A stretch of DNA of 42,802 bases from contig JAFLDL010000041.1 of NCBI GenBank assembly GCA_017302435.1, positions 1 to 42,802 of the forward strand, read 5' to 3'. Below, piece by piece: positions 26,072 to 42,802 of this stretch. The stretch's first letter is position 1, and each line of letters begins with the position of its first letter. The notes beneath the pieces were generated by a model that was given only the letters and a program-made list of their open reading frames with translations, was not told where the DNA came from and made no database searches. This DNA comes from Candidatus Accumulibacter necessarius. GTDB lineage: Bacteria > Pseudomonadota > Gammaproteobacteria > Burkholderiales > Rhodocyclaceae. The position numbers and the translations under genes are program-made.

Positions 26072-26157
26072 GTGAGGCGTTTTTTCGGGAGCGATCATGA
26101 GATGTTCCCCAAATGATTCATCGGCGTGGATTTCACGCCTAACCGCAGGAGGCAGAA

Positions 26158-26724: not shown

Positions 26725-26754
26725 ACGACGGATCCATAAACCCAGGAGTTCATC

Positions 26755-27051: not shown

Positions 27052-27929
27052 ACCCTGTGACTAATCATTTCATTCGCCAGACCGGCATCGCGGTCGCCCT
27101 GAGCCTGCTGGTGGTGACCGGCGCCAGCGCGCAGACGGCGCCATCCGGTACCAAGCCGGCCAAGCCGGCGGTCAAGAAGAAGGCGGCGCCGGTCGACAAG
27201 CCGGCACTTGAGGCGCGCGCGGTTGACCTGCTCAAGGCGACCAGCGCCCGGTTGGCGGCGGCCAAGGCGATGTCCTTCACCGCCACCGTCAGCTACGAGC
27301 ATCCCAGCCGCCTCGGCCCACCCCTGGTGTTCACGTCGCGCTACGACGTCGTGATGCAGCGGCCGGAAAGGCTCCGGGTCATCAACCTGGGCGACGGCCC
27401 GGCCTCCGAGTTCTATCTTGATGGCAGGACCATGGTCGCCTTCGCGCCGGCTGAGAACCTCGTCGCCATCGCCGAGGCGCCACCGACCCTCGAAGCGGCG
27501 CTGAGGATGGCGTTCGAAAAGGCGGCCATCTACTTCCCGTTCACCGACCTGCTGCTTCCCGACCCATTTGCCGCGATCGCCGACGGCACCAAGCTCGCGT
27601 TTTACGTCGGCCCGTCCGGACTGGTTGGCGGAGTCAAGACCGACATGGTTGCCTGGGCCAACGACGACGTTTTCCTGCAGATGTGGGTAGGTGTCGAAGA
27701 CAAGCTGCCGCGCCGCATCCGCGCCGTCTTCCGTGCCGACCCGCTGCGCCTGCGTCACGACATGGAACTCTCCAACTGGCAGCTCGACCCGGTGATCGCG
27801 GCCGATGCCTTTGGCACGGCGAAGGCGAAGGATGCTCGGCGCATCGACTTCGCGCATCCGGCCGTAAAGCCGCCGCCGGGCGTCAAGCCGGTCGCGAAGT
27901 CGCCCAAGCCCGCAACCAAGTCGCAGTGA
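27048..27929 (+). CDS. DUF2092 periplasmic protein (copy 3)
   Basis: A 293-residue exported protein (signal to about GASAQ), starting with an ATGA overlap on the preceding gene. A lysine/proline-rich linker (TKPAKPAVKKKAAPVDKPA) leads to the DUF2092 part: VDLLKATSARLAAAKAMSF, VVMQRPERLRVINLGDGPA, FYLDGRTMVAFAPAENLVA and the C-terminal VFLQMWVGVEDKLPRRIRAV. A second Lys/Pro tail ends the protein. The LolA-like fold is from family knowledge. Its partner follows at 27944 after 14 bases. Confidence 0.87.
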   Translation: MNPVTNHFIRQTGIAVALSLLVVTGASAQTAPSGTKPAKPAVKKKAAPVDKPALEARAVDLLKATSARLAAAKAMSFTATVSYEHPSRLGPPLVFTSRYDVVMQRPERLRVINLGDGPASEFYLDGRTMVAFAPAENLVAIAEAPPTLEAALRMAFEKAAIYFPFTDLLLPDPFAAIADGTKLAFYVGPSGLVGGVKTDMVAWANDDVFLQMWVGVEDKLPRRIRAVFRADPLRLRHDMELSNWQLDPVIAADAFGTAKAKDARRIDFAHPAVKPPPGVKPVAKSPKPATKSQ

Positions 27930-27943
27930 ACACGGAGGCGAAA

Positions 27944-28558
27944 ATGAACAAGTCACTTATCGGCATCTCGATCCTGCTGGCCGGCGCCCTGTGTTCATCG
28001 CAGGCCATGGCATGGGCCAGCGCCAACCGCTTCGGCGGTTCGACCGCGCATGTTCCCGGCGCCACCGAGCACACAAACGCCTTCGGCGGCAGTTCGGAGC
28101 ACGCCTATGGTGAGGGCACCGAGCACACCAACGCCTACGGCGGCAGCACTGCCCACGCCTGGGGCGGGGGCACCGAGCATACCGATGCCTATGGGGCGAC
28201 TGCCTACCGCCCGCCCACCTACCCGGTCTACCATCCACCGGTCGCGGTGCCGGTCTATTCGGCAGGTTGTTACGGTTGCGCCGCGGCGGCCGGGGCGGTC
28301 GTCGGCGTGGCAGCGGGGGCAGCAGTGGCTTCGGCCAATACCGCGGCGGCCACTTCAAACGCCTATGCCGCCGGCGTGGCGGCGGGTGCCGCCAGTGCGC
28401 CGGTCGCCTACGCGATGGGCGTCAACTACGCGGCGCTGCCGCCTGGCGCGTCGCCTGCGAACGTCGGGGGTGCCACGTACTACATCGTTGGCAACACCTG
28501 GTTCAAGCCGATGTATGGCGCCAACGGTGTCTATTACCGCGTTGTACCAACTCCCTGA
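27944..28558 (+). CDS. Small exported His-repeat protein, partner of DUF2092 copy 3
   Basis: A 204-residue protein with a signal peptide (MNKSLIGISILLAGALCSSQ to AMA). Residues about 25-85 are tandem 18-residue repeats (TEHTNAFGGSSEHAYGEG, TEHTNAYGGSTAHAWGGG) rich in histidine, glycine and threonine; metal binding is possible but unproved. Then come a proline/tyrosine stretch, a Gly/Ala-rich helix or zipper (AGAVVGVAAGAAVASA) and a C-terminal domain with LPPGASPANVGGATYY, TWFKP and GVYYRVVPTP. It ends like the proteins at 8420 and 11913. GGAGG precedes the ATG. The repeat makes it the most elaborated of the three partners. Confidence 0.78.
   Translation: MNKSLIGISILLAGALCSSQAMAWASANRFGGSTAHVPGATEHTNAFGGSSEHAYGEGTEHTNAYGGSTAHAWGGGTEHTDAYGATAYRPPTYPVYHPPVAVPVYSAGCYGCAAAAGAVVGVAAGAAVASANTAAATSNAYAAGVAAGAASAPVAYAMGVNYAALPPGASPANVGGATYYIVGNTWFKPMYGANGVYYRVVPTP
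28025..28200 (+). repeat. 54-bp in-frame tandem repeat in the DUF2092 partner gene
   Basis: ACCGAGCA begins at 28064, 28118 and 28172, each 54 bases apart, encoding 18-residue units TEHTNAxGG…; the units differ slightly at the third codon positions and in a few residues. Confidence 0.85.
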
Positions 28559-28630
28559 GAGGGAGGTCGACCCCGCTTCCCGGAGCGGGCGCAATGCAAG
28601 AACCTGAAAGTCAATTTAGAGGATGAAACG

Positions 28631-28921
28631 ATGAAAGCTTCAGCATTTATCTTGTCCGCTGCGATGCTGGCGATGACGTTTGCTTCCGGTGCTTACGCGG
28701 TGGAATGCGTAGACGGTGTTCGTCGTGCCGAGTGTGAAACATCGCGAGGCGCTGTGGAGGTCCGCAAGCCGGTCGAGCCCCTTCCGGCGCGCGGGGTTGA
28801 AGTAGCTCCCGCACGGGGGGTTGAAGTCGCCCCTGCCAGGGAGGTTCCCGTGGCGCGTGACGCCGAGGTCCGTGCGACGCCGGAATGTCGTATGGTCGAC
28901 GGTCGGCGAGTCTGCCGCTAA
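28631..28921 (+). CDS. Small exported protein with short tandem repeats
   Basis: A 96-residue protein with a signal peptide (MKASAFILSAAMLAMTFASG to AYA). The mature part has two cysteines near the start (ECVDGVRRAEC), a repeat of about eight residues (PARGVEVA, PARGVEVA, PAREVPVA) and a C-terminal ECRMVDGRRVCR, so a C-xn-C pair at each end. Function unknown. AGAGGATGAAACG precedes the ATG. Confidence 0.7.
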   Translation: MKASAFILSAAMLAMTFASGAYAVECVDGVRRAECETSRGAVEVRKPVEPLPARGVEVAPARGVEVAPAREVPVARDAEVRATPECRMVDGRRVCR

Positions 28922-28957
28922 GCAGCCCGGCCTGTGCTTGGCGCCCGGTCGCTTGGT

Positions 28958-28982
28958 GGGGCCCTGCCGGGGCCCTTTCTGC
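28958..28982 (+). terminator. Probable terminator after the small repeat protein
   Basis: GGGCCC at 28959-28964 pairs with GGGCCC at 28970-28975 around a short loop, and TTTCTGCTT follows. Good stem, modest T tract. Confidence 0.5.
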
Positions 28983-29282
28983 TTCCATCTCGGCAGCGGC
29001 AGCGGCAGCATCCGCATCGCGCCGTCTCCGGGTGAGGGGCCAGCGCCAGTGAGTGGGATCGAGCATTTGCCTCTGTGGCGGTACCCACTATCGCGCGACG
29101 TTCCCGGGCAACCACCGCGTCCGCGCAGTGCGGCAGCCGTGGCGGCACCGGCCAAGCTCGTTCCCGTTTCCACAGGCAACTCTCGCGCCAAGCGGGAGCG
29201 AGCGCAGCTTGATCGCCCCGGGCAGGGTGGCTAGCATGTTTGAACTGTCGTTGAGCTACTTACCAAACCAAGGAGTCTGACC
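28983..29282. other. Intergenic, nothing firm
   Basis: No gene is supported. A plus frame reads CGGTHYRATFPGNHRVRAVR over about 29066-29125 but has no family match I know. GAGCTACTTACCAAACCAAGGAG before 29283 carries the SYLF gene's ribosome-binding site. Confidence 0.35.
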
Positions 29283-29840
29283 ATGAAACTGCACCACCTT
29301 TTGATGAACGGCGTAATCACTCTTTCCTTGTTGTCCGGTAGCGCTCTGGCTGCTGACGATAAGGCCGCCAAGCAGGCCGAGATCCGCACGGTGGCCCAGG
29401 CCTCGCTGGAGAAGTTCTACGCCGCTCAGCCGGAGCTCAGGGGGCAGGTTGCCAAGGCTCCAGGCTACGGCGTGTTCACCACTTACGGGCTGAGCTTCCT
29501 GGTTGGCGGTGCCGGCGGCAAGGGACTGGTCCATAACAACAAGACGAAGAAGGACACCTTCATGGCGATGGCGCAGGCGAGCGCCGGCGCCGAGGTTGGG
29601 ATTGCGGAGAGCGAGACCCTGATCATTTTCGAGTCTGCCAAGTCGATGGACTGGTTCGTCAACAAGGGCTGGGAAGGTGGCGGTGGCGGCGGGATGCAGG
29701 CTGGCGCTGGCGGCAAGTCGGCCGGCGTGGCAGGCGGCGGCGGCCCTGGCGGCGCGTACTACACCCTCACCAAGAACGGTCTGCAGGCCGGAGTCGCGGT
29801 CAAGGGGACCAAGTTCTGGAAGGACGGGGATCTCAATTAA
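29283..29840 (+). CDS. SYLF/YSC84-domain lipid-binding protein
   Basis: A 185-residue exported protein with signal peptide (MKLHHLLMNGVITLSLLSGS to ALA). The SYLF pattern is visible: AKAPGYGVFTTYGLSFLVGGAG, then GAEVGIAESETLIIFESAKS, with glycine-rich repeats (GGGGGGMQAGAGGKSAG) and a final GGAYYTLTKNGLQAGVAVK. The family binds phosphoinositides or other lipids in eukaryotes; in bacteria it is a periplasmic protein of unproved role. AAGGAG precedes the ATG. The next gene follows after 45 bases. Confidence 0.85.
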   Translation: MKLHHLLMNGVITLSLLSGSALAADDKAAKQAEIRTVAQASLEKFYAAQPELRGQVAKAPGYGVFTTYGLSFLVGGAGGKGLVHNNKTKKDTFMAMAQASAGAEVGIAESETLIIFESAKSMDWFVNKGWEGGGGGGMQAGAGGKSAGVAGGGGPGGAYYTLTKNGLQAGVAVKGTKFWKDGDLN

Positions 29841-29885
29841 GCGGATGTCCGCGAGAGGGGGACGTACACCCTGCCGGTAGGTGGT

Positions 29886-30830
29886 ATGCACATTTCTGGA
29901 AGTAGCCGCAGCATTCGTCTACAAGTACTCCTGGCAGTTGTGTCACTGTGGCTCGGCATTGGCGCCAGCAGCGTCGCACGCGCTCAGGACATCGAGCCGC
30001 GCGCCTATTCCAACGCGCCGGTTGGTGTGAACTTCCTGATCACCGGCTACGCCTATACGGAAGGCGCGGTGCCGTTCGACGCCTCGCTACCCGTGGAAAA
30101 CGCGCAGCTGAGGACGTCCAGCGCGGTTCTCGCCTATGCGCGGGTGCTCGATCTCTGGGGCAAGTCAGGCAAGTTCGACGCCATCGTGCCCTATACCTCG
30201 CTTTCCGGAACGGCCGAGCTCGCGGGTCAGCCCGTCGAGCGCGAGGCCAATGGTCTGGCCGATGCGAGATTCCGATTGTCGGTCAATCTTTACGGGGCGC
30301 CGGCGCTGACGCTGCAGGAGTTCAGGAATTACGAGCAGGATCTGATCGTCGGTGCGAGCCTGCAGGTGTCGGTGCCCTGGGGCCAGTACGACTCCAGCCG
30401 GGTGGTAAACATCGGCACCAACCGCTGGTCGTTCAAGCCGGAGGTGGGGATTTCCCAAGCCGTCGGTCCGTGGACCGTCGAGTTCCAGGCCGCAGCAGCC
30501 TTCTTCACGGACAACAAGGACTTCTTCGGTGGCAACACCCGTTCGCAGGATCCCATCTACTCGCTGCAGGGGCATGTGATTTACGGTTCCCGCTCGGGCA
30601 TCTGGGGTTCGCTCGATGCAACCTACTTCACCGGCGGCCGCACGACGGTCAACGGCGTAACGAAGGATGATCTCCAGGAGAACTGGCGCGTCGGTGGCAC
30701 GCTGGCTTTCCCCGTGGACGCGCGCAACTCGGTCAAGCTCTACGCGAGCAGCGGGGTGTCGGCACGGACCGGCAACAATTACGACCTGGTTGGGATTGCC
30801 TGGCAGTATCGCTGGGGCGCCGGGCTGTGA
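29886..30830 (+). CDS. Outer-membrane protein, MetA-pathway/phenol-degradation type
   Basis: A 314-residue exported protein with signal to about ARAQ. The mature part, beginning PRAYSNAPVGVNFLITGYAY, and the alternating strands that follow match the 'putative MetA-pathway of phenol degradation' family (PF13557), an outer-membrane beta-barrel group. It ends WQYRWGAGL. The stop codon overlaps the GTG start of the mechanosensitive channel gene, so both are translationally coupled. The substrate is unknown, despite the family name. Confidence 0.85.
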   Translation: MHISGSSRSIRLQVLLAVVSLWLGIGASSVARAQDIEPRAYSNAPVGVNFLITGYAYTEGAVPFDASLPVENAQLRTSSAVLAYARVLDLWGKSGKFDAIVPYTSLSGTAELAGQPVEREANGLADARFRLSVNLYGAPALTLQEFRNYEQDLIVGASLQVSVPWGQYDSSRVVNIGTNRWSFKPEVGISQAVGPWTVEFQAAAAFFTDNKDFFGGNTRSQDPIYSLQGHVIYGSRSGIWGSLDATYFTGGRTTVNGVTKDDLQENWRVGGTLAFPVDARNSVKLYASSGVSARTGNNYDLVGIAWQYRWGAGL

Positions 30831-33535
30831 GCGGCGTGCGCTGGCCAGCCTCGTGCGGGGCAGGGCGCTGGCTTTGCCATGTCTACCGGTGGCTGCGTAC
30901 ACCGGTTCCAGGCCTGCTGCTGGCCTTGGCTTTCGCCATGCTCGCGGGTGCGGGCTTCGCTCAACAGGGCGATCCGCTGCGGGCCGTGGCCGACCGGAAC
31001 GACGAAATCTCCAGCCGGATCACCGAGGCGACGAAAGCGATCGAGGAACCGGAGAAGGCGCTGGCGGACTTGCGGCGGATGCGGACCGAGCTCGAGCAAA
31101 GGATGCGCTGGGTCGAACGGCGTGCCAGTGTACAGGCTCTCGGCCAGGAATTCGCACAGACGCTCAGGGAGTATCTGCGTGGGCTGCCCAGCGCCGACAC
31201 GTTGGCCGCCGGCAAGGCGCGCCGCATGCAGCTTCTCGCCACGGCCAGCGATGCCGAACTCGCTGTCGAGCGCGCCCTGCACCGGCTCGACGATCCCGAT
31301 ACCGTGATCGACAGCCTGCTGGCGAAAGTTCAGCCGCCGTTCGCCGACGAAGAGTTGCCGCAGTTGAAGCGGGCACTGTCGGCCGCGCTGCGGCAACAGC
31401 GCGACCTGCTGCGACGTCTGGCTGGCGAGCAGAGCCAGCTGCGCAAGACCCTGAACGAGGCGGGCGAGGAGGCGGCCGCGCTGGAGAAGCAAGCCGACGC
31501 CGCTCGTACGCAACTGACCGATCTGCTCTTCTGGACGCCCGCGCCACCGACCGCACAAACGCTCGCCGAGCTCGTGCCGGCGCTGCAGTGGACCTTCTCG
31601 GCCGCCCACTGGCAGGCGGCTGCCGGGGCGATGCAGGCGGAACTGGCACGCAAGCCGCTCTGGCCGGCAGTGGCGCTGTTGTCGGCAGGTCTCCTGCTGG
31701 CCGTGCGCGGCAGATTGCGGCGGGCACTGCTGGCACTGTCGCCGGCAGCGCTGACGGTTGATCGCTACGGGATTGGGCATGCCCTGGCGGCCCTGGGGGT
31801 CATCTGCCTGCTTGCTCTCCCCCTCCCGCTTCTCATGTGGGCGGCTGCCGGCACGCTGCTGGGTGCGCCCGAGAGCCAGGATTTCGTCGGCGCGCTGTCG
31901 GAAGCGCTGTACCAGGTCGGCCGGCTGTTGCTGGCCCTGCTCGTCAGCACCTGGCTGCTCGACCGGAACGGGGTTGCCGTCCGCCACTTCGGCTGGGACG
32001 AAGCACTGGTGGCGGTGACGGCGCGCCACTTGCGCCGCGGGCTGGCCATCTTCGTGCCGCTAATTTTCCTGGCCGCGGTGAACGGGCTGGCGCACGCGCC
32101 GTTTGCCAACGAGGAGAGCCTCGGCCGCCTGGGCCTCAGTCTGGCATCGTTCACGGTGGCCGTGTTCTTCTTTCGGCTTCTTCTCCCCGGCAGCGCGGTG
32201 ATGCGGCGATTGCGCGCTTACGCGCCACGGAGCTGGGTGCTGCGCCTGCGCGTCGTCTGGTTGGCTGTGCTGGCCGGTATTCCCTGCGGCGTGGGGGTGC
32301 TTGCGCTGGCCGGCTACTTCGTCGCGGCCGGCTACGTCTTTGGACGACTCATTCATTCGCTGTTTGTGGTGCTGGGAGCCGTGGCTCTCTACGGCCTGAT
32401 GGCCCTGTGGGTGCAGATTCAGCGCCAGCGGCTCGCCCGTGAGCAGGACCGGGACGAGAGCACGCCGGCGACACAGTCCGCAGGGTTGGGTGCGGCTGAT
32501 GGGATCGTCACGCAAGACGATGCCTTGCCGCGGCGACTGCAGCTGGACATAGCGGCACTCGGCGAGGAAACACGATCGCTACTCGACTTCGTCGTCTCCC
32601 TGCTGCTTGTCGGCGCGCTCTGGTGGGTGTGGCGTGACGCGCTGGCGACGCTGGGGGCGATCACCGACTACAAGCTCTGGAGTTACACCGACAGCCTAGG
32701 TGGCAAGGAGGTGACGCACGCGCTCACCGTCGGCCGGCTGATGCTGGCGCTACTCGTCCTCGTCATCACCGCCATCCTGGTACAGCGGGTCGGTGCGCTG
32801 CTTGACATAGTTCTGTTGCAGCGCCTGGACATGCAGGCCGACGCAAGCTATGCGATCACGGTGGTGACGCGCTACGCCATCGCTGCCGTCGGCATCGTGT
32901 CGTCGAGCCGCCTGCTCGGCGTCGGCTGGGAGGATGTGCAGTGGCTGGTCACCGCGCTCAGCGTCGGCCTCGGCTTCGGCCTGCAGGAGATCGTCGCCAA
33001 CTTCGTATCGGGGCTGATCGTGCTCGCCGAGCGCCCGATCCGCATCGGCGACGTGGTGACGGTCGGCGACATCTCCGGCAAGGTCGCGCGGATCCGTGCC
33101 CGGGCGACGTCGGTGATCGACTTCGACAACAAGGAAGTGATCATCCCGAACAAGGCCTTCATCACCGGTCACGTAGTCAACTGGACGCTGTCGAACCAGA
33201 TCATCCGACTGCTGATCAAGGTCGGCGTCGGTTACGGCAGCGATATTGGGCTGGTGCAGCGGGCAATCCTCGAAGTCGTCCGTGGCAATCCCGACGTGCT
33301 GCAGGATCCCGCGCCTTCGGTCTTCCTCGTGGCTTTCGGCGAAAGTTCGCTGGACTTCGAGATTCGCGCCTTCGTCGATTCGCTCGACAAGCGTTTGCGG
33401 GTGCAGCACGAGATCAATCGCGAAATCGCGCGCGTGCTTGGCGAGCACGGCATCGAGATCCCGTACCCGCAGCGCGACCTGCACATCCGCTCGGCGCCGG
33501 GAGCATTCCCGGGAAACTTGCGGGACGACCAGTAA
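30827..33535 (+). CDS. Large mechanosensitive channel (MscK-like, DUF3772)
   Basis: A 902-residue inner-membrane protein starting at GTG in a 4-base overlap with the upstream stop. A hydrophobic signal or anchor (residues about 25-45) precedes a long periplasmic coiled-coil domain (about 50-280, e.g. EEPEKALADLRRMRTELEQR). About ten membrane segments follow. The C-terminal MS channel domain begins ALSVGLGFGLQEIVANFVSG, with VGDISGKVARIRARATSVID and VIIPNKAFITGHVVNWTLSN. It should open under membrane tension to release solutes. Length and layout fit the MscK/DUF3772-type large channels, not the small MscS. Confidence 0.9.
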   Translation: MSGVRWPASCGAGRWLCHVYRWLRTPVPGLLLALAFAMLAGAGFAQQGDPLRAVADRNDEISSRITEATKAIEEPEKALADLRRMRTELEQRMRWVERRASVQALGQEFAQTLREYLRGLPSADTLAAGKARRMQLLATASDAELAVERALHRLDDPDTVIDSLLAKVQPPFADEELPQLKRALSAALRQQRDLLRRLAGEQSQLRKTLNEAGEEAAALEKQADAARTQLTDLLFWTPAPPTAQTLAELVPALQWTFSAAHWQAAAGAMQAELARKPLWPAVALLSAGLLLAVRGRLRRALLALSPAALTVDRYGIGHALAALGVICLLALPLPLLMWAAAGTLLGAPESQDFVGALSEALYQVGRLLLALLVSTWLLDRNGVAVRHFGWDEALVAVTARHLRRGLAIFVPLIFLAAVNGLAHAPFANEESLGRLGLSLASFTVAVFFFRLLLPGSAVMRRLRAYAPRSWVLRLRVVWLAVLAGIPCGVGVLALAGYFVAAGYVFGRLIHSLFVVLGAVALYGLMALWVQIQRQRLAREQDRDESTPATQSAGLGAADGIVTQDDALPRRLQLDIAALGEETRSLLDFVVSLLLVGALWWVWRDALATLGAITDYKLWSYTDSLGGKEVTHALTVGRLMLALLVLVITAILVQRVGALLDIVLLQRLDMQADASYAITVVTRYAIAAVGIVSSSRLLGVGWEDVQWLVTALSVGLGFGLQEIVANFVSGLIVLAERPIRIGDVVTVGDISGKVARIRARATSVIDFDNKEVIIPNKAFITGHVVNWTLSNQIIRLLIKVGVGYGSDIGLVQRAILEVVRGNPDVLQDPAPSVFLVAFGESSLDFEIRAFVDSLDKRLRVQHEINREIARVLGEHGIEIPYPQRDLHIRSAPGAFPGNLRDDQ

Positions 33536-33578
33536 GATCTTGACGTTCGACAGAAGCACACGGCCGACTGCGTGGTAA

Positions 33579-33776
33579 TCAACGCGACGGTTTCTTCGTC
33601 ATAGCGAGAGGAGTAAGGCGTATGTGTTCTGCCGCCTTGTCCGGAACTTCCCGTTCGATGACCATCAGGTCGAGGTCCGAATCGTCGTCGGCTGTGCCGC
33701 GCGCGTAGGACCCGAACAGGATGACGCGGGCGGGTGAACGATACTCGTCAAGGTTGCCATTGACTGTTCGTCCCAC
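33579..33776 (-). pseudogene. Truncated MNT-type nucleotidyltransferase
   Basis: A 65-codon frame from a GTG at 33776 reads RVILFGSYARGTADDDSDLD, the GSxARGxxxxxSDxDL signature of minimal nucleotidyltransferases, with both first catalytic aspartates. It stops after LTPLAMTKKPSR, roughly half the usual 95-140 residue domain; the third aspartate and C-terminal helix are missing. The start overlaps the beginning of the primase-helicase gene on the other strand by a few bases. It is probably a broken MNT antitoxin-like gene without a HEPN partner in view. Confidence 0.7.
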
Positions 33777-33779
33777 CCA

Positions 33780-36614
33780 ATGGGCGCCGATGCCGCAGTC
33801 TCCCAGCACTCCGCCGTAGCCGCCAAGATCGCCCTTTTCCGGTCGCTCTTCCGGGGGCGGGACGACCTCTATCCGCGTCGTTTCGAAAGCCTCCGCACCG
33901 GCAAGACGGGTTACAGCCCCGCCTGCGCCAACGAGTGGGTGCGTGTTCTGTGCGACAAACGGGCGGTCAGGTGCCAGGACTGCCCCAGTCGGCGATTCCT
34001 GCCGCTGACCGAGGAGGCCATTCGTCAGCACCTTTCCGGTCACGACGACTGTGGTCGCGAGTTTGTGATCGGGGTATACCCGATGCTTCTCGATGAGACC
34101 TGCTTCTTTCTTGCCGCGGACTTCGACAAGCAAGACTGGCGTGCGGATGTCGGCGCCGTTCGCGAGACCTGCCGACAACTCGGGCTGCCGGCTGCGGTCG
34201 AGCGATCGCGCTCGGGCAACGGCGGTCACCTGTGGTTGTTCTTCGTCGAGGCCATACCGGCTGTCCTGGCGAGGAAACTCGGTGCGCACATTCTCACCGA
34301 GACGATGGAACGGCGACCAGACATCGGGCTGGATTCGTACGACCGTTTCTTTCCGAACCAGGACACCCTGCCCAAGGGCGGCTTCGGCAATCTGATCGCC
34401 CTGCCGCTGCAGAAGCGCCTGCGGGAGAGCGACGACAGCGTGTTCCTTGACGAACAGTTGCTTCCCTGGCCGGATCAGTGGGCGTTTCTCTCGACCATGC
34501 AAAGGATCACCCGTGCGGCAGCCGAAGCCATTGTCCGCGCCGCCGAGCAACGCGGCCGCGTCGTCGGAGTTCGCTTTCCTGGGCTTGACGAAGACAAGGA
34601 AGGCGACGCAGAACCCTGGACCTCGCCGCCTTCGCGCCGCCGTGCCGAAGCTCCAATCAGCGGGTCTTTGCCCGAGCGCCTGGAACTGGTCCTTGGCAAC
34701 GCGATCTACCTTGCCAGGGAGGGGTTGCCAGCCGCCTTGCGCAATCGCCTGCTGCGGCTGGCGGCGTTCCAGAATCCCGAGTTCTACCGGGCGCAGGCGA
34801 TGCGTCTGCCGACCTTCGGCAAGCCGCGCGTGATCTCCTGCGCCGAGGAGCATCCGCTGCATCTCGGTCTGCCACGCGGCTGCCTGGACGAAATCCAGGA
34901 TCTGCTCGGCAGCCTCGGGATCGAGTGCGTCCTGCGCGACGAGCGCCACCCCGGCGTGCCGCTGAGCGTCTCGTTCCAGGGCACCTTGCGGCCGCAGCAG
35001 GCGGTTGCTGCAGATGCTCTGGCCGGTCACGACCAAGGGGTTCTCGCGGCGACCACCGCTTTCGGCAAGACCGTCGTCGCGGCGTGGCTGATCGCCAGGC
35101 GCGGCGTCAGCACGCTGGTGCTCGTGCACCGCCAGCAACTATTGGAGCAGTGGGTCGAACGGCTGGCAACCTTCCTGGGTTTGCCGGCCAGGGCCATCGG
35201 CCGCATCGGCGGCGGCCGCAACAAGCCGAACGGCACGCTCGACGTGGCGCTGATCCAGAGCCTCGTCCGCGCCGGCGTAGTCGATGACGGCGTCGGGGAA
35301 TACGGTCATCTGGTCGTGGACGAATGCCATCACCTGCCGGCGTCGAGCTTCGAGCAGCTGGTCCGGCGAGGGCAGGCCAGGTATGTCCTTGGCCTGTCGG
35401 CGACCGTGACCCGCAAGGACGGGCACCACCCGATCGTTTTCATGCAGTGCGGACCGGTCCGCCATCGAGTCAGTGCGCGCGAACAGGCCGCAGAGCGACC
35501 TTTTGCCCACAACGTCTGGGTGCGTCCGACGGCATTCCACCCGCCCGGCGCCGGGGACCCCGATCTACGCGTCCAGTTCCATGATCTTTACGAGGCGCTG
35601 ATCGCCGACGACAGACGAAATCACCTGATCGTCGATGACGTCGCTGCGGCAGTTCGCGAGGGACGTTCGCCGGTCGTGCTGACCGAACGAACCCGTCACC
35701 TCGAACATCTGGCCGAGCGACTGTCTCCGATCGTCCGCCACCCCGTGGTCCTGCGCGGTGGCATGGGCAGGCGGCAATTGCAGGATGCGCTCGCGCAGCT
35801 GGTGGCCATCCCGGAGAGCGACGAACGTGTCGTCCTGGCGACCGGCGGCTACCTCGGCGAGGGGTTTGACGACGCCCGTCTCGACACCCTGTTCCTGACG
35901 TTGCCGGTTTCGTGGCGAGGAACGATTGCGCAGTATGCCGGCCGTCTGCATCGCCTGCACGACAGCAAGCGGGAGGTCCGCATCTACGACTACGCCGACC
36001 TCAATGTGCCGATGCTGGCGCGGATGTTCGACCGGCGCTGCAAGGGCTACGAAGCGGTCGGTTACACCATTCTGCTGCCAGCCAGCGCGGTGCCCGGCTG
36101 GCCGCCCGAGGTGCCGCTTCCGGTCGAAGCGGATTGGAAGCGCGATTACGCCACCAGCGTCCAGCGCCTGCTGCGCGACGGGGTGGACGCGCCGCTCGGC
36201 GAGCTGTTCGTTCACGCTGCCTGCACGTTCGAGGCGGGGGCGACCGGCGTTGAGCGCGCGCGCAGTGCCAGCGAAGCCTTCCTCTTCCGCCGCTTGCAGA
36301 CGCTTCCCGCCACCGCCGGGAAGTTTCATCTCAACGTCGAGTTGCCGATTCCTTTCGACGGGCGTGGCGGAATGGAGGTTGATTTGCTCGCGGCGGAGGC
36401 GCGGGTGGCGGTCGAACTCGATGGCCCGCAACACCTGGCCGACCCCGGAGCCTATCGTCGCGACCGGCGCAAGGACGCGCTGCTGCAGGAGTACGGCTAT
36501 GTCGTGCTGCGCTTTCTCGCCGAGGATGTCGGCAAGCATCTCGATGATGTTCTCGACACGCTCCTGCGCGCTCTGGCGCATCGCCAGCGGGATCCGATTC
36601 CGTGTGAGAGATGA
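33780..36614 (+). CDS. TOTE-type primase-helicase-nuclease conflict protein
   Basis: A 944-residue three-part protein. Residues about 10-245 are an archaeo-eukaryotic primase (AEP-TOTE) domain: a zinc-finger-like CQDC pair, catalytic FLAADFDK (Asp114, Asp116), ERSRSGNGGHLWLFF (His150) and SYDRFFPNQDTLPKGGFGNL. Residues about 400-760 are an SF2 helicase: AATTAFGKT (Walker A, 423-431), VVDECHH (DECH box, 514-517), SAT (540-542) and QYAGRLHR (motif VI, 718-725). Residues about 830-930 are a DUF559-like PD-(D/E)XK nuclease (MEVDLL with Glu866/Asp868, VELDGPQH, RKD, VLRF). All sites look intact. TOTE systems are predicted defences against invading DNA. It has no apparent operon partner. Confidence 0.88.
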   Translation: MGADAAVSQHSAVAAKIALFRSLFRGRDDLYPRRFESLRTGKTGYSPACANEWVRVLCDKRAVRCQDCPSRRFLPLTEEAIRQHLSGHDDCGREFVIGVYPMLLDETCFFLAADFDKQDWRADVGAVRETCRQLGLPAAVERSRSGNGGHLWLFFVEAIPAVLARKLGAHILTETMERRPDIGLDSYDRFFPNQDTLPKGGFGNLIALPLQKRLRESDDSVFLDEQLLPWPDQWAFLSTMQRITRAAAEAIVRAAEQRGRVVGVRFPGLDEDKEGDAEPWTSPPSRRRAEAPISGSLPERLELVLGNAIYLAREGLPAALRNRLLRLAAFQNPEFYRAQAMRLPTFGKPRVISCAEEHPLHLGLPRGCLDEIQDLLGSLGIECVLRDERHPGVPLSVSFQGTLRPQQAVAADALAGHDQGVLAATTAFGKTVVAAWLIARRGVSTLVLVHRQQLLEQWVERLATFLGLPARAIGRIGGGRNKPNGTLDVALIQSLVRAGVVDDGVGEYGHLVVDECHHLPASSFEQLVRRGQARYVLGLSATVTRKDGHHPIVFMQCGPVRHRVSAREQAAERPFAHNVWVRPTAFHPPGAGDPDLRVQFHDLYEALIADDRRNHLIVDDVAAAVREGRSPVVLTERTRHLEHLAERLSPIVRHPVVLRGGMGRRQLQDALAQLVAIPESDERVVLATGGYLGEGFDDARLDTLFLTLPVSWRGTIAQYAGRLHRLHDSKREVRIYDYADLNVPMLARMFDRRCKGYEAVGYTILLPASAVPGWPPEVPLPVEADWKRDYATSVQRLLRDGVDAPLGELFVHAACTFEAGATGVERARSASEAFLFRRLQTLPATAGKFHLNVELPIPFDGRGGMEVDLLAAEARVAVELDGPQHLADPGAYRRDRRKDALLQEYGYVVLRFLAEDVGKHLDDVLDTLLRALAHRQRDPIPCER

Positions 36615-36622
36615 GGTCCAGC

Positions 36623-36658
36623 GAATTGAGGGGACAGTACGAATTGAGGGGACAGTAC
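36623..36658 (+). repeat. Two exact 18-bp tandem repeats after the TOTE gene
   Basis: GAATTGAGGGGACAGTAC occurs at 36623-36640 and again at 36641-36658, directly joined. The sequence is typical of ends of mobile elements. A distant inverted look-alike, ACTGTACGGTCCCTACAA, begins near 36738. Confidence 0.85.
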
Positions 36659-36684
36659 ACTAAACTCATCTTTTCAGCCCAGGG

Positions 36685-37203
36685 CTAAAAGTGACAAGGT
36701 GGCGGAGTTCTCGGGCGTGGCAAGTAGCCGCGGAAATTTACTGTACGGTCCCTACAACCCCCAGTGCGCTGGAACTCGCCCTGATGCCCCCGGCCATCGG
36801 CCTCGCTGACACCTCGCGCGTCGCGACTTTGCCCGCCGAAATGCAGCGCAAGTTCAAATCGCTCGAGGATCTGCGCAAGAGGGAAGGCGGCCTCGAGGTG
36901 CACCTGACTTCCGACCGAAGGAACGCCGGCGATCAAACCCGGCATGCAGGACAAAGTCAATTGCTCGGCGTTGATCGGTCCGGTCGAACCGGCGTCGGAA
37001 TCGCGCCGGGTGTCCTCGCCCTTCAGGCGGCGATCACCCTGGATGGTGTAGGTGACAAAGCCATCGCGAAATACCAGCGCGCCATCGCTACGCCCGGCAT
37101 TGACACGCTTGCCATTGACCCAGACATGCTCCTGTTGGTCAATCCGGATGGTGGCCACCGTGCCACCGGTCGGGGTGGCCGTTCACCAGCCGGCAAGTGC
37201 TGA
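36685..37203. other. Overlapping coding-like frames, origin unresolved
   Basis: On the plus strand, about 36780-36920, a frame reading MPPAIGLADTSRVATLPAEM and SLEDLRKREGGLEV has high-GC third positions. On the minus strand, about 37158-36980, a frame reads IRIDQQEHVWVNGKRVNAGR, VFRDGFVTYTIQGDRRLKG, also coding-like. No start is placed in either and I recognise no family. It may hold two decayed gene fragments. Confidence 0.3.
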
Positions 37204-37403
37204 TGAACACGCGGATACTATCCGAAGCCACAAGCAAGAAATTCTCAATATTCTGACGAAACTGATTCATTGGGTGGGCGGTTTTTGCGCATGCTGCTTT
37301 CGCCGATACTTCGGCGCGAAGCAAGCGCAGTCAGTTCCAGCAGGCTTCTGTATCTCATCCAGCAGGCTTCTGCCTCTGATCAACAACTACCGGAACCCAA
37401 GAA
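37204..37403. other. Intergenic, upstream of the duplicated-domain gene
   Basis: A minus frame (37139-37324) reads MNQFRQNIENFLLVASDSIR but continues into an unrelated frame. No function; it may be part of the decayed region above. Confidence 0.3.
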
Positions 37404-38204
37404 ATGTCCCAGTCAATCAGGCGAACCACAGCCATCACCGTTGCGGTGTCGATGATCGTCGGCAGCAATGGCGCATGGGCCCAGACCCCCAGCGATCTAT
37501 CCGATCTGGTCGACGTGCGTGGCCGCGATGCAGAAGCGCAGATGGAAGATCGTGGTTATGTCAGTCACCACACCTCGAAAAGCGACGATGCCGCTTATAC
37601 CTACTGGTGGAACAGTCGCGACAAGCGTTGCGTGCGGGTACGCACCCGTGATGGCCGATATGAGCAGATCAAGACCGTAGGCAACAGCGATTGCGATCAA
37701 CGCGACAACAGCGGGGGCAAGGCGGCGGCTGTCGCAGTCGGTGCGGCAGCCCTGCTGGGCTTGGCGGTGCTTGCCTCAAAGTCCCACCATCGGGAGGACC
37801 GTGACTACGACGAGCGGCAAACTGCCCAGTTCGAACGCGGCTACCGTGATGGGCTGCACAACCAGCCCTTCCACAACTACGAGGACTCGAAAGAGTACAG
37901 CGACGGCTATACCAAGGGGGTGGATCAACGCCGCCAGGAAACGAGCTATCGCTCGGATTACGGGTCGCGCGGAGGCAACCGGGCTTACGTGAATGTCAGC
38001 GATCTGTCCAACCGTGAGACCACCTACACATGGGGGCAGCTGGAGCGTCGCGGTTTTGCCTTGGCCAATGAGCGTAAGTTGGGCAATGGCGACAACCAGT
38101 GGCTGTACTGGAACGACAGTACCCGTCAGTGCGTGGAGGTCGTCTCGCGCGATACCTGGGTCAGCTATGTCGGCGAGGCCAGTGCGACGGCGTGTCGGAA
38201 GTAG
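37404..38204 (+). CDS. Exported protein with internally duplicated domain
   Basis: A 266-residue protein with signal peptide ending AWAQ. Residues about 30-98 and 193-265 are two copies of one small domain: DLVDVRGRDAEAQMEDRGYV with YTYWWNSRDKRCVRVRTRDG..C, and VNVSDLSNRETTYTWGQLER with NQWLYWNDSTRQCVEVVSRD..AC. Each has a conserved WxxxxxxxCV and a final cysteine, probably a disulfide. Between them lie a hydrophobic segment (AVAVGAAALLGLAVLAS) and a charged, Tyr/Asp-rich linker. Function unknown; secreted or periplasmic. Only AAGAA precedes the ATG, a weak ribosome-binding site. Confidence 0.75.
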   Translation: MSQSIRRTTAITVAVSMIVGSNGAWAQTPSDLSDLVDVRGRDAEAQMEDRGYVSHHTSKSDDAAYTYWWNSRDKRCVRVRTRDGRYEQIKTVGNSDCDQRDNSGGKAAAVAVGAAALLGLAVLASKSHHREDRDYDERQTAQFERGYRDGLHNQPFHNYEDSKEYSDGYTKGVDQRRQETSYRSDYGSRGGNRAYVNVSDLSNRETTYTWGQLERRGFALANERKLGNGDNQWLYWNDSTRQCVEVVSRDTWVSYVGEASATACRK

Positions 38205-38370
38205 GCGGCAGGATGGGAACGTGGCGTGATGGCTCTGCATTCTGGCGGCATCGCCAGCGCGCGGGGCACATGCCGCGTCCGCCGGGCGAGCCGGCAATCA
38301 TCGTATCGCCAGCAGCGTGGCCGGGGCTGGTTCTCGTTCGCCTCATCCCTCTCGATCAACGCGTCAGCAA

Positions 38371-39312
38371 TCAAGGAACGGCGGTGACTGGCCAGGCGGC
38401 CTTGAAGCCATCCGCCAGGTTCTCGCAGCACAGCCGCAAGTGGTCGCGCAACAGCATGACAAGCGGCGACAACTGGCGACGATCGGCACAGACCAGTGAC
38501 AATGGCGCGGCCTCGGTCGTCCATTCGGTACAGAGCGGCACCAGAAGCCCAGCTGCTATGCTCTTGCCGACATCCAGCGCCGACTTGTAGGCAATGCCGT
38601 GGCCAGCAAGGGCCCAGCGATGCACGGCATCACCGTCGTCAGCGATCCGGTTTCCATTTACGGTTACCACGATCTCCTGCCCCTCCAGGCTGAAGCGCCA
38701 ATGCTCGTGCAGGGCGTTCCCGAGACGGAATCGCAGGCAATTGTGTCGCGACAGGTCCCCCGGAACCGCCGGTATGCCGTGGCGCGCCAGGTAGTTCGGC
38801 GCTGCACAGAGAACACGCCGGTTACCGGCCAGGATGGGCAGCGCGACCAACCCCGAATCCGCCATGTCCGTATAGCGAATGGCAATATCGACCGGTTGTT
38901 GGTAAAGGTCTGCCGGGCGGTCGGAAACATGCGTGCGCAGCGTCACGTCGGGGTGTTGAAGCAGGAAGCTGTCGAGCCAGGCCAGCAGATGATTCCGCCC
39001 AAGGTCCGAGGGCATCGAAACGCGCAACTCCTCGCGCAGGCTGCTGCGCACCTGGGCAATGTCGTCGAGCGCATGACTCAGTCCAGCCAGGGCGCAACGG
39101 GCTGCCGGCAACAGGCTTTCTCCTTCCGGACTCAGACGCAGGCTCCTGGTGGAGCGTATGAGCAATACCGCACCCAGATCGGATTCCAGCCGTTTCAGGC
39201 TGGCACTGGCTACTGCAGGAGACAAATCGAGCGTGTGGGCCGCTGTCGAGAGGCTCCCGCTGTCGGCAGCCAGCACGAAGACGCGGAGATCCTGCAAATT
39301 TCTGATTTTCAA
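38371..39312 (-). CDS. LysR-family transcriptional regulator
   Basis: A 313-residue regulator. Residues 1-65 form the winged helix-turn-helix (LQDLRVFVLAADSGSLSTAA, SPAVASASLKRLESDLGAVL), and about 90-300 the LysR substrate domain (PADLYQQPVDIAIRYTDMAD). Start TTG at 39312 is the only in-frame choice with family-like residues; no ATG is available upstream. The gene is divergent from the LprI-like gene at 39501, but regulation of it is inference. Inducer unknown. Confidence 0.9.
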   Translation of the reverse strand: MKIRNLQDLRVFVLAADSGSLSTAAHTLDLSPAVASASLKRLESDLGAVLLIRSTRSLRLSPEGESLLPAARCALAGLSHALDDIAQVRSSLREELRVSMPSDLGRNHLLAWLDSFLLQHPDVTLRTHVSDRPADLYQQPVDIAIRYTDMADSGLVALPILAGNRRVLCAAPNYLARHGIPAVPGDLSRHNCLRFRLGNALHEHWRFSLEGQEIVVTVNGNRIADDGDAVHRWALAGHGIAYKSALDVGKSIAAGLLVPLCTEWTTEAAPLSLVCADRRQLSPLVMLLRDHLRLCCENLADGFKAAWPVTAVP

Positions 39313-39473
39313 TTTTCGATTAAGAGTGTTTCGTCATGGCGCTAGTGTAAGGTCGAAAGCCGCTGACCGATACTCATTGAGCCATCGAGAGCGGCGGAAG
39401 ATGCTTCCCCTTCGCCGTGCCGGCAATACTTGCTATGGCAGCTGCAGCGATCGGCACGCAACCAGAGCGATGC

Positions 39474-39486
39474 CGATAGACTATCG
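39474..39486. other. Short palindrome before the LprI-like gene
   Basis: CGATAG and CTATCG pair around a single A (39474-39486), immediately before the ribosome-binding site GAGGAG. A possible operator for the divergent LysR regulator, or chance. Confidence 0.25.
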
Positions 39487-39500
39487 AGTGAGGAGAACCA

Positions 39501-40145
39501 ATGAAGAAGCCAGTGCTTGTTGTTTCATCTTTCATCGCCGGTGCGGTGGCCTTTCCGGTGACTGTGCTAGCGCAGGGGCCGACTTTCAACTGCGCGAAAG
39601 CGAGCGGTGAGGTTGAGACATTGATCTGCGCCGACGCCTCACTGGCAGCTCTCGACCGCAAGCTCGACGAGGTCTACAAGGCGGCATCGGCCAAGGCCAA
39701 AGGCAAGCTCGCGACACGGTTGCGCGAGGATCAGCGAGGATGGGTCAAGGGTCGCAACGACTGCTGGAAGGCGAAAGGGGAGCAGACCTGGATCACGGCG
39801 ACCTGGACCGTCGACACGGTGAAGGGGTGTGTCGATGCCCAGTACAGGCTCCGCACATCGGAACTGCAAGCGGTTTGGCAACTATTGCCGCCGAAGACCG
39901 TCTCCCATGCCTGCCAGAACAACCCTGCCAACGAGGTGGTGGCAAATTTCTTCGCCACCGACCCGGCCACGATTCGACTGGAGCGCGGCGATCGTACCGT
40001 GACGATGTGGCTCGTCGGCTCTGCGAGCGATGGGAAGTACGAAGGCCAGAATGTCAGCCTCGTGCATCAGGGCAACGAGCTGAAGGTGAGCTGGCTGGAC
40101 ACGAATACGGGCAAGACCGACGAACTGCAATGCAAGGCGAAATGA
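39501..40145 (+). CDS. LprI-N plus MliC-like exported protein (possible lysozyme inhibitor)
   Basis: A 214-residue exported protein with signal to about VLAQ. Residues about 30-115 form an LprI N-terminal-type domain (DUF1311): FNCAKASGEVETLICADASL, LDRKLDEVYKAA and a paired cysteine pattern. Residues about 135-214 look like an MliC-type inhibitor domain: HACQNNPANEVVANFF, then WLVGSASDGKYEG and a final LQCKAK. Both families can bind c-type lysozyme. Start ATG with GAGGAG upstream. The TraB-like gene begins 4 bases after it. Confidence 0.7.
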   Translation: MKKPVLVVSSFIAGAVAFPVTVLAQGPTFNCAKASGEVETLICADASLAALDRKLDEVYKAASAKAKGKLATRLREDQRGWVKGRNDCWKAKGEQTWITATWTVDTVKGCVDAQYRLRTSELQAVWQLLPPKTVSHACQNNPANEVVANFFATDPATIRLERGDRTVTMWLVGSASDGKYEGQNVSLVHQGNELKVSWLDTNTGKTDELQCKAK

Positions 40146-40149
40146 CACG

Positions 40150-41301
40150 ATGACCACGACCAACTCGACCGCAACCAAATCCAGCACCAGCAACTGGTCA
40201 GCGCGTCTGAACGGCGCGTTCTGGCTGGCGCTGATCCTGTTCGCCCTGGCCGGCCTGCTGGTCGTGGGCAAGCTGCCGCCATGGATCATCGGCCTGGTCG
40301 CCGCCGCGGGGGTCGCGCTGGGCGCGCTGCTGTTCCTGCTGCGCTGGCTGGCCAAGCGGCGCGACCCGGCCTACTCGCCTGGCCGGTCCTTCGGCGCCTT
40401 CGCGCTCGGTGGTGCGCTGGGCATGGTCGGACTCGCCTCGCTGCCGGTGTATTACCTGGCCTTCTGGGTCCAGAGCGGGCCGACCGCGGTGCCCCTGGCG
40501 ACGCTCTCCAACGGACAGAAGACCGTGGTTTTCCAGGGCATGCAGCACATCGGCTCGGAGGAGTTCTACAAGTCGGTCGTGTTCGACCTCGAGCAGGCGC
40601 TCGCGGACGGCTACACGCTGTTCTATGAGGGCGTGACGCCGGTGGACGGGCGGCCCGACCTGACGGACTGGTTCAACCAGACCCTGCGGGGCAGCAAGCA
40701 GGACCTCAGCGCCGGCTACAAGAAGATGGCCGAGCAATGCGGCCTGAGCTTCCAGCTGAACTACTTCGACCCGATCAAGGCCGACATGGCGATCCACCCG
40801 TCGCGGCACATCACCGCCGACGCGAACTTCCTGGAGATGAAGACAGAGTACGATCGCCTGCTGCGCGAGGACCCGGCCTTCGCGGCTGCGATGGCCGCCA
40901 AGGCGGCCAAGGCCAAGCCGGCGACGTCCGATTCCGGCGATCCGTTTGCGCTGTTCCTCGGCATCGTGGAAGGGGCCACCCCCGAGCAGAAGAAGCTTGC
41001 CGGCATCGTCTGCCGTGGCGTGTTGGGGATGGCCGTCTCCGGCGCGTTGGGAGAAGAGAAGGATCCGTCCAACCGAATCATCGTCGACTTCCGCAACCAG
41101 ACGCTCGCCCGCTTCGTCGCCGACTCGAAGTCCGACAAGATCTACATCACCTACGGCGCGGCGCACTTCCCGGGCTTTTTTGCCGAGCTGCAGCAGCGCG
41201 ACCCGAAGTTCGCCATCCGCTCGGTCAAGGGCGTGCGCCCGATGACGCTCCCGGACGAGGTCAACCTGGCACCGTCGGCCGTTTCCGGCTCGGGTGGGTG
41301 A
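40150..41301 (+). CDS. Membrane-anchored TraB/GumN-like protein
   Basis: A 383-residue protein with three N-terminal hydrophobic segments (about 20-40, 45-65, 85-110) and a soluble part. [27 protein letters not shown] and a late [13 protein letters not shown] fit the TraB/GumN (Tiki-like) pattern of HIG, acidic, and GxxH motifs, which in Tiki proteins is a metalloprotease active site. The family assignment is from motif order only. It overlaps the next gene by 8 bases and follows the LprI-like gene at 4, so all three probably share a transcript. Confidence 0.6.
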
Positions 41302-42226
41302 TTTGGGCAGCCAGCATTCAGGGCCGGCGGCCAGCGCCGTGGTTCCGCCGGTCGTCGCCTCGAACTGGCTCGGCAGATCAACTCGGGGACCGTCCCCCAT
41401 TTTCTGCGTGCTTTTCGCCGCCGCCGCCGCCACGCTCGCGGGCTGCGCATCGGTGCCACAAGGCGGCGGGCCCGCTCACCGTACTCCGCACGTTGCCGCG
41501 CTCGCATCTCTTGGCCCACTCTTTACCGTGACTGTCGACGTCGCCGGAGCCCCCAGGCGGTTTCTCGTCGATACGGGTGGCGGCATGACGGTGTTCGCCC
41601 CGGATGTGGCGGCTGAAGCGGGCTGCATTCTCGGCGGTCCGCTCACAGGCTTCCGCATGTCGGGTGAGCGCATCGACGCGCCGCGCTGTGAGGGGGCAAC
41701 GGTCAGCGTTGCCGGTTGGGTGTCACGGCCGCACACGGTCATGGTGCTGGATATCAACAAGTTGCTGCCGCCTGACTGGCCGCGCCTGGACGGTCTCATT
41801 TCCCTGTCCAGCTTTGACGGCCACGTCGTTACGCTTGACCTTCCCGGTCGTCGCCTGGTGCTCGACGACAGTGTGCCACGGGATGCGCGCAGCGTGCGCG
41901 TCCGCTTTGAACGTTCGGTCACGGGCCTGGCGCTGGTGGCCTTCGTTGCGACTCGTCACGGCGACACCGACGTCTGGCTTGAGGTCGATACCGGCAGCAC
42001 CAGCGCTCTCATTCTCAACGAACCAATTGCCGCGATGGTCGGCCTCGCAATCCCTGCCGGCCCTAACGCACGGATCGAGCTTCGCGTCGATGGTGGTGCG
42101 CCGGTTCAGACACCCGTCGAGACGAGCCGGCTTATCTTCGATGGCAACCTCGGGCTTGGCACGATGGGCTCATGGGTGGTCATTTTCGACCTTGAGAAGG
42201 AACGCGTATGGATTCGCACGCCGTAG
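41294..42226 (+). CDS. Retropepsin-like aspartyl protease lipoprotein
   Basis: A 310-residue protein with a lipobox LAGC near residue 51 after a long N-terminal stretch. Two DTG motifs, [12 protein letters not shown] (about residue 92) and [13 protein letters not shown] (about residue 232), show an internally duplicated single-chain aspartyl protease fold. It starts at GTG 41294 inside the upstream gene, but a later start nearer the hydrophobic stretch is more likely. Exported to the periplasmic side; target unknown. Confidence 0.7.
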
Positions 42227-42339
42227 CCAACCACGCACGACGATTGAGCAGGAGTAAACCAGTTTCGCGATGGGTTTTTTTGCAAAACCGTAGGGAGTGC
42301 GAGGGTGTTAGCCCGTAACCCGACAATTTGGCACGGTTT

Positions 42340-42367
42340 GGGCGGGTTACGCTCCGCTAACTCGCCC
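42340..42367. repeat. Palindromic repeat between protease and peptidase genes
   Basis: GGGCGGGTTA (42340-42349) and TAACTCGCCC (42358-42367) pair with one mismatch. A second GTAACCCG (42315-42322) can pair with the same arm. It resembles an extragenic palindrome. Confidence 0.5.
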
Positions 42368-42419
42368 TTCACCTTGCCTGGACCGAGTTCACCATGACTA
42401 ATGAATGGAGTATGCGGGA

Positions 42420-42680
42420 ATGACACTTTCGACCATCGGACGGAAGGCGCTTCAGGTGCTTGTCCTCGGGCTTGTCGCATTGTTTGCGGGCCCACAGAGC
42501 GCAGTGGCGCAGAAGCTGCCAGACTACAAGGCATCGGCCGGGATGCTCAAGATCGGCAAGGACCCCGAGCGCCCCGATGCCGAGATTTTTCACGTCGCCT
42601 ACACGCTCAAGGGTGCGGACCCCGCCAAGCGGCCGGTGACCTTCGCCTTCAATGGCGGCCCCGGCGCCGCCAGCATCTAT
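42420..42680 (+). pseudogene. S10 peptidase-like gene, N-terminal fragment cut by insertion
   Basis: From ATG 42420 (alternative 42405) a signal peptide (KALQVLVLGLVALFAGPQ to AVAQ) is followed by FHVAYTLKGADPAKRPVTFA and FNGGPGAAS, the S10 serine-carboxypeptidase signature (vFNGGPGSAS). After IY (about 42680) the match ends abruptly, and a stop follows at 42699-42701. The rest of the protein, about 400 more residues in the family, is missing; the break coincides with the start of transposase-like sequence. Confidence 0.75.
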
Positions 42681-42691
42681 ACCGTGGGCGG

Positions 42692-42802
42692 TCACGACTG
42701 AATCTTCTGGAACGTTTGGAAGTTCAAGGTCAATAAGGACTGTAGGGCGTTGGCGTGGATGGTGTGGGTATCTTGCAAGCAGCGTTCGATAGCGGTAGTG
42801 AA
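42692..42802 (-). CDS. Probable transposase C-terminus, cut by the window edge
   Basis: The minus strand from the window edge encodes FTTAIERCLQDTHTIHANAL and LTLNFQTFQKIQS, then TGA, with coding-like composition. It begins about 10 bases after the break in the peptidase gene. The residues recall C-termini of DDE transposases, but 36 residues are too few to name a family. Confidence 0.45.
   Translation of the reverse strand, partial: FTTAIERCLQDTHTIHANALQSLLTLNFQTFQKIQS

Follow-up and report, generated by a model that had tools for sequence, protein, structure and literature searches.

One gene encodes a Prim-Pol, an XPB-like helicase and a nuclease

The window analyzed here, a 42,802-nucleotide stretch of contig JAFLDL010000041.1 (positions 1 to 42,802) from the wastewater bacterium Candidatus Accumulibacter necessarius, carries on its plus strand an open reading frame (ORF; 33780..36614) that starts with ATG, contains no internal stops, encodes 944 residues and gives a single match in its own genome. 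The initial annotation, made from the sequence alone, had described the product as a single protein joining an AEP primase, a superfamily 2 (SF2) helicase and a DUF559 nuclease in that order. Pfam bears this out, each of the three domains passing its gathering score: AEP-TOTE (PF22548) at residues 16–249 (E 7.7e-94; 314 bits against a gathering cut-off of 27), ResIII at residues 402–544 (E 1.4e-19) and DUF559 (PF04480) at residues 866–932 (E 4.9e-11; 42.9 bits against a cut-off of 20.6). Structure prediction recovered the same three parts, with residues 11–258 resembling the Prim-Pol domain of CAPP, residues 299–755 resembling XPB with its N-terminus included, and the C-terminus resembling DUF559/Vsr nucleases with a weak match also to Bax1. 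Sequence matches in the PDB (E ≤0.01) comprised four kinds of helicase (XPBII, the XPB helicases of TFIIH, RadD and one annotated as putative), the CAPP domain of Marinitoga and 3hrl, an endonuclease-like protein; XPBII aligned with the helicase part at a phmmer E of 2.9e-17.

The AEP (Prim-Pol) domain spans residues 11–258 (33810..34553; like all features of the gene given below, on the plus strand). The AEP motifs I (hDhD), II (sxH) and III (hD), as defined in PMC5862659, are all present: motif I is D114-F115-D116 (DFD; 34119..34127), motif II is S145-GNGG-H150 (SGNGGH, residues 145–150; 34212..34229) and Y187-D188 (34338..34343) is probably motif III. Four cysteines (C49, C58, C65 and C68; 33924..33983) form a cluster that we interpret as a putative zinc site. 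An XPB-type N-terminal domain (residues 299–398; 34674..34973) precedes the SF2 core (residues 399–769; 34974..36086), which is delineated by ResIII, the XPBII match and the folds and which contains Walker A (TTAFGKT, 425–431; 35052..35072), Walker B (DECH, 514–517; 35319..35330) and helicase motif VI (QYAGRLHR, 718–725; 35931..35954). In the structure models a helical connector (residues 784–850; 36129..36329) leads to the DUF559/Vsr-like nuclease (residues 851–935; 36330..36584) with D868, E879, D881 and K898. No sigma-70 promoter was found for the gene, and the count of terminator-like sites did not exceed that in shuffled sequence.

All three active sites are conserved

Conservation was counted in 71 rows of the fused protein, partial ones included, and 23 rows of two-domain relatives in which an AEP domain is followed by an SF2 helicase without the nuclease; each count refers to rows with a residue at the site and, because rows were picked as ORFs, broken copies lie outside it. 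In the Prim-Pol domain, D114 and D116 are present in 69/69 fused rows, H150 in 70/70 and D188 in 71/71 fused and 23/23 two-domain rows, while each of the four cysteines is kept in 67/67 fused and 21/23 two-domain rows. In the helicase, K430 of Walker A and Q718, R722 and R725 of motif VI are invariant (71/71), as are D514 and E515 of Walker B (70/70) and, after motif III, R545 and D547 (71/71), a region that we take to be the RED motif of XPB. In the nuclease, E879, D881 and K898 are present in 71/71 fused rows and D868 in 70/71. The motifs DFD, SGNGGH and DECH, previously noted as intact, are thus confirmed both in the sequence and by conservation. The same annotation had called the DECH box unusual; this description is rejected, as C516 is found in 70/70 fused and 22/23 two-domain rows and is the norm of the family.

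Comparison with six Accumulibacter copies gave ratios of nonsynonymous to synonymous substitution rates (dN/dS) of 0.16–0.22 for the Prim-Pol domain, 0.18–0.25 for the helicase and 0.09–0.19 for the nuclease; the connector region (residues 770–850) gave 0.19–0.37, the top value in five of the six pairs. Each of the three domains is thus under purifying selection. By computation, one chain carries three folds with conserved active sites; the dN/dS values, the near-full-length copies in 8 of 28 genus genomes and the 75 of the 80 best loci elsewhere that reach the nuclease (see below) argue against a chance arrangement.

The protein belongs to a known AEP-helicase type, of which it is a variant armed with a nuclease. 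It matches the AEP-TOTE domain with a score well beyond the Pfam cut-off and has AEP and SF2 helicase in the order seen in its two-domain cousins, from which it differs by the DUF559 nuclease on the same chain; a literature search that reached few subscription papers did not turn up a definition of the complete TOTE system. The Prim-Pol fold is that of CAPP, yet NCBIfam CAPP type A1 scored 68.7 bits against a cut-off of 200, and the fused protein differs from the CAPP_A 'CAPP-Helicase' and its non-CRISPR relatives, described in PMC8211822, by the extra nuclease and by having no detected CRISPR array. The PADLOC model with the best match (E 8.4e-88) is a PrimPol catalogued as CRISPR-associated; we reject such an association for the fused gene because a home-made 21-mer scan, run without a positive control, found no array in 135 loci including the window. 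There were also no cas families among the 10 window ORFs tested. The helicase part shares the SF2 core and the fold of the N-terminal domain with XPB/SSL2, but the NCBIfam XPB equivalog scored 54.6 bits against a cut-off of 610; it is XPB-like, not XPB. The archaeal XPB-Bax1 pair, presented in PMC7293015 as a helicase-nuclease repair machine, differs in that here a single chain is found and a Prim-Pol is added, and the nuclease is nearer to the DUF559 protein 3hrl than to Bax1. It shares with DUF559/Vsr-like nucleases the PF04480 match and the conserved acidic and lysine residues, and differs from them in being part of a large ATP-driven enzyme. Type III restriction (Res) differs in having a Mod methyltransferase; no methyltransferase family was found among the 10 window ORFs, the nearest neighbours on both sides included.

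The fused form is scattered over several phyla

Among 101 genomes (G numbers), nine have a near-full-length fused gene in one open frame (own, G013, G023, G025, G016, G004, G026, G020 and G051), of which G051 belongs to another genus; within the genus, such a copy lies in one open frame in 8 of 28 genomes, the own genome and the near-identical G013 included. In G003 the copy runs off its contig, and in G014 it is broken. A wider genome scan found relatives encoded in at least 541 of 588 candidate stretches. Among the best 80 of these loci, 75 reach the nuclease (some of them broken or partial), four end near residue 773 and one is cut by its contig. By genome labels these loci cover at least six phyla (Pseudomonadota, Verrucomicrobiota, Planctomycetota, Acidobacteriota, Lentisphaerota, Riflebacteria and 'Deltaproteobacteria'), with the caveat that most of the genomes are metagenome-assembled, so that individual labels may be in error. 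Among 398 Pseudomonadota genomes, 16 gave a match at E 1e-60, and the nuclease is reached in the own genome only. The G105 phylum (Verrucomicrobiota by label) has matches in 37 of 288 genomes; 20 of these are full length, three of them near 49% identity. The two-domain form is also present in G110 and G125, among 30 genomes with the fused gene. One of six loci from a viral collection is fused and is followed by an AbiEii-like ORF; it is viral only by collection label, and no phage record covers 80% of the 944-residue protein. Because the fused form is scattered over phyla and yet reached in only 20/288 genomes of the G105 phylum and 1/398 Pseudomonadota genomes, its patchy occurrence suggests transfer-like spread.

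A FastTree phylogeny separates the 71 fused from the 23 two-domain rows by a single change, with a support of 93. After addition of 17 rows, divergent Verrucomicrobiota among them and one identical to an earlier row, the tree of 79 fused and 32 two-domain rows still required one change, with a support of only 64 and long branches. In view of this lower support and the long branches, we regard a single fusion event as no more than compatible with the trees, of which it is the simplest reading. The nuclease-bearing form is a family of its own. Broken copies and fragments of the fused gene exist in other genomes, as is common for defence genes. In-frame stops in loci L062, L074 and L087 were considered as natural gene splits and rejected; they look like decayed copies.

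The gene occupies different positions in related genomes

To the left of the gene in the window lies, on the minus strand, the remnant of a nucleotidyltransferase gene, presumably of MNT type judging from its motif (33572..33737). It consists of two blocks that match longer sister copies (33572–33610 and 33616–33737), between which three sister genomes have ~418 bp, and it ends sharply at 33737. The left boundary of the gene unit falls at 33738..33741, MNT homology ending at 33737 and homology to the G025 gene unit starting at 33741. Another stretch of the own genome (L133, G000:C51, 2145–2266) is 92% identical to the larger MNT piece (33616–33737). Immediately 3′ of the gene is a tandem pair of an 18-bp unit (36623..36658, plus strand). 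Its exact 16-mer core occurs nowhere else in the own genome, and the second copy with the right flank has no other match within three mismatches. Of the flanking features proposed by the initial annotation, the broken nucleotidyltransferase accordingly stands, while the mobile-element repeats come down to this one local pair; genome-wide mobile repeats were not found beside the gene. By eye, no target duplication was found in the flanks.

Apart from G013, the DNA that sister copies have in common with the window is confined to the gene and at most about 55 bp in front of it. In related Accumulibacter the fused gene lies at different positions. The G013 contig (G013:C101, 17 kb) is 99.9% identical to window 25848–42802 and provides no independent evidence; G013 is listed as a different species, and the near-identity may reflect shared strain DNA, recent transfer or a binning error. 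In G023, G025, G016, G014 and G003 the gene lies at another place, beside a clpX-like gene, where an MFS transporter gene also adjoins if the contig reaches that far (names assigned by eye). The two sides of this place lie ≤400 bp apart on one contig in 16 of 28 genus genomes, the own genome included and G002 counted on a shorter match, versus 4.3 kb in G025. Other cargo there comprises, in G025, a MazE-like antitoxin and a PIN protein; in G003, an EAD8-TIR-NACHT-FGE protein and a reverse-transcriptase fragment; and in G027, where the AEP gene is missing, redox and two-component genes. These data support a hot spot in the sister genomes, not at the window. In G003 (L195, G003:C248, 1675–5931) the protein beside the fused gene is of the EAD8-TIR-NACHT-FGE-sulfatase type and, with the reverse-transcriptase fragment nearby, recalls a diversity-generating conflict locus.

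We also observed that window 36660–36699 (AAACTC...GTGACAAGG), which is 3′ of the gene here, has by eye a similar stretch 5′ of the gene in L034 and L039, and a 58-bp match to G016. The 10 window ORFs tested encode an MscS channel, Phenol_MetA_deg, a sulfatase, DUF2092, a LysR regulator, LprI/MliC and four proteins without a family.

No partner gene recurs widely beside the fused gene

With a home-made, targeted approach we looked for six neighbour families in 90 fused loci, among them broken copies and one undetermined locus, and for comparison in 41 two-domain loci and 20 control stretches. The search was not exhaustive, as it missed the annotated TniQ of L137 and as Pfam detects AbiEii in 4/95 flank ORFs of a single batch, and short contigs lower all counts. 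AbiEii-like ORFs were found in 4/90 fused (seed locus included), 4/41 two-domain and 0/20 control loci, AAA_14-DUF4143 in 4/90, 3/41 and 0/20, AlbA_2 in 3/90, 2/41 and 0/20, tyrosine recombinases in 2/90, 8/41 and 1/20, PIN in 2/90, 1/41 and 0/20, and TniQ in 0/90, 1/41 and 0/20, respectively. Clusters of flank ORFs comprised at most four loci each, apart from those built on one syntenic Accumulibacter group. Thus, no widely recurring operon partner was found, none of the six families exceeding 4/90 fused loci, in agreement with the earlier proposal that the protein has no visible cotranscribed partner.

Two-domain relatives on plasmids

Plasmid records with a match numbered 234, of which 51 cover 80% of the query, and 18 plasmid stretches, one without annotation, were opened. 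Two or three tyrosine recombinases adjoin the two-domain gene in six of these, and TniB/TniQ lie near it in two; other nearby genes encode type I restriction (one stretch), AbiEii (two) and a PDDEXK nuclease (one), as well as other toxin-antitoxin genes in several. The six sets (L138, L139, L142, L144, L145 and L146) are on alphaproteobacterial plasmids and possibly represent a recurring element. In a Sphingobium plasmid (L137, 5848–8295) the AEP-helicase gene overlaps the TniQ gene by 4 bp within a TniB-TniQ row. Zabrady et al. 2021 (PMC8211822) state that the relatives of CAPP outside CRISPR usually reside in mobile elements and for the most part have a helicase domain, and the two-domain genes beside recombinases on plasmids fit that statement.

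Discussion

Our preferred reading, to which we give not quite an even chance, is that the fused protein is a self-contained, horizontally spread, partnerless anti-invader enzyme. In its favour are the three domains with their conserved active sites, the dN/dS values, the patchy spread, the different positions in related Accumulibacter, the occupied site beside the clpX-like gene in sister genomes, the broken copies and fragments, the AbiEii-like ORFs near fused and two-domain genes, the TIR-NACHT-FGE protein in G003 and the antitoxin-PIN pair in G025. Defence models were scanned in 185 of 232 selected flank ORFs (Accumulibacter loci, two-domain loci and ORFs of ≥1200 residues being left out; four of the 185 are pieces of the fused gene itself). 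In two batches of 95 and 90 ORFs, PADLOC reported 178 and 129 families, respectively; the control, 95 of 97 ORFs taken from 20 contigs of such genomes, gave 48. Among the listed matches, mads models occurred in both flanks and control. The Zorya, Dpd, BREX and DISARM (DrmD) models were rejected as neighbours because all of those listed match a single SNF2-type helicase ORF in L108, leaving AbiEi/AbiEii, PDC-S01, methyltransferase and UG29 reverse-transcriptase models, the latter two single; Pfam AbiEii was found in 4/95 flank ORFs of one batch. Because those four systems reduce to one ORF, we lowered our estimate for a defence role from just above to just below an even chance, and that for the one-protein immune machine described below from unlikely to slightly more so.

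Several observations weigh against the anti-invader reading. The control contigs were chosen arbitrarily. The L108 ORF alone accounts for 44 of the 129 families, and the tally is inflated by redundancy, several models naming the same protein. The ten longest flank ORFs comprise the L108 helicase, two ORFs with a small 2OG model only and seven without a PADLOC match, and many flank ORFs elsewhere belong to housekeeping families. At the window itself none of the 10 flank ORFs tested belongs to a defence family, so that the defence-island-like hot spot suggested for this site was not borne out. No partner or sensor accounts for the sparing of self, and the plasmid cousins beside recombinases also fit element biology. 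The defence association expected of the neighbourhoods thus receives weak support: AbiE, methyltransferase and TIR-NACHT genes lie nearby in other genomes, yet one generic helicase and redundant models account for much of the PADLOC excess; the excess is modest and the defence link of the fused gene is plausible but modest.

Within our preferred reading, what the protein recognizes and the order of its steps can be proposed as follows. The XPB-like translocase would bind and open foreign DNA, its probable targets being replicating or structurally unusual molecules with, for instance, forks, bubbles or gaps; the fused Vsr-type nuclease would nick the opened strand, in the manner suggested for Bax1 as the companion of archaeal XPB; and the Prim-Pol domain would prime or extend on the exposed single strand. 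Priming might drive further opening, convert the cut strands of the invader to damaged duplex, or close a gap in host DNA. The bolder form of this reading, a one-protein 'open, cut and prime' immune machine that opens invader DNA, incises it and primes synthesis from the opened strand, we regard as unlikely.

Among the alternatives, a role in DNA repair and service to mobile elements are serious rivals; repair, the likelier of the two, is well below the preferred reading in probability. The protein would then, in the case of repair, be a bacterial one-chain counterpart of XPB-Bax1 that opens lesions or stalled forks, incises, and reprimes or fills gaps by means of its Prim-Pol. In structure it comes closest to XPB as found in repair and TFIIH complexes and to the XPBII of XPB-Bax1, its nuclease matches the Vsr repair endonuclease and Bax1, and PMC7293015 describes XPB-Bax1 as a helicase-nuclease machine for repair. 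A little less probable than repair is service to mobile elements, in which a plasmid- or transposon-derived primase-helicase would aid replication, establishment or transposition and the nuclease would process ends. The recombinase sets and TniB/TniQ beside the plasmid cousins, the recombinases in 8/41 two-domain loci and the mobile-element setting of non-CRISPR CAPP relatives (PMC8211822) argue for it. However, the fused loci have recombinases in 2/90 (control 1/20) and TniQ in 0/90, in a search that missed the TniQ of L137, the 10 tested window neighbours are not element genes, and phage records covering 80% of the protein number zero. A selfish mobile gene, whose nuclease cuts sites and whose polymerase-helicase helps to copy the gene in, in the style of homing elements, is very improbable given that no target duplication was seen, that the left edge lies in an MNT gene that also lost ~418 bp, and that the position is constant within one clade.

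Work by primase, helicase and nuclease is commonly divided among several proteins; here all three lie on one chain with their active sites kept. Such a single, widespread chain would be a simple experimental system for the role of Prim-Pols in immunity or repair and, because the fused gene is shorter than 3 kb, its function is directly testable in a laboratory host. If the open, cut and prime proposal were true, the family would represent a widespread, partnerless bacterial defence that reuses the excision-repair logic of XPB-Bax1 together with a primase of its own.
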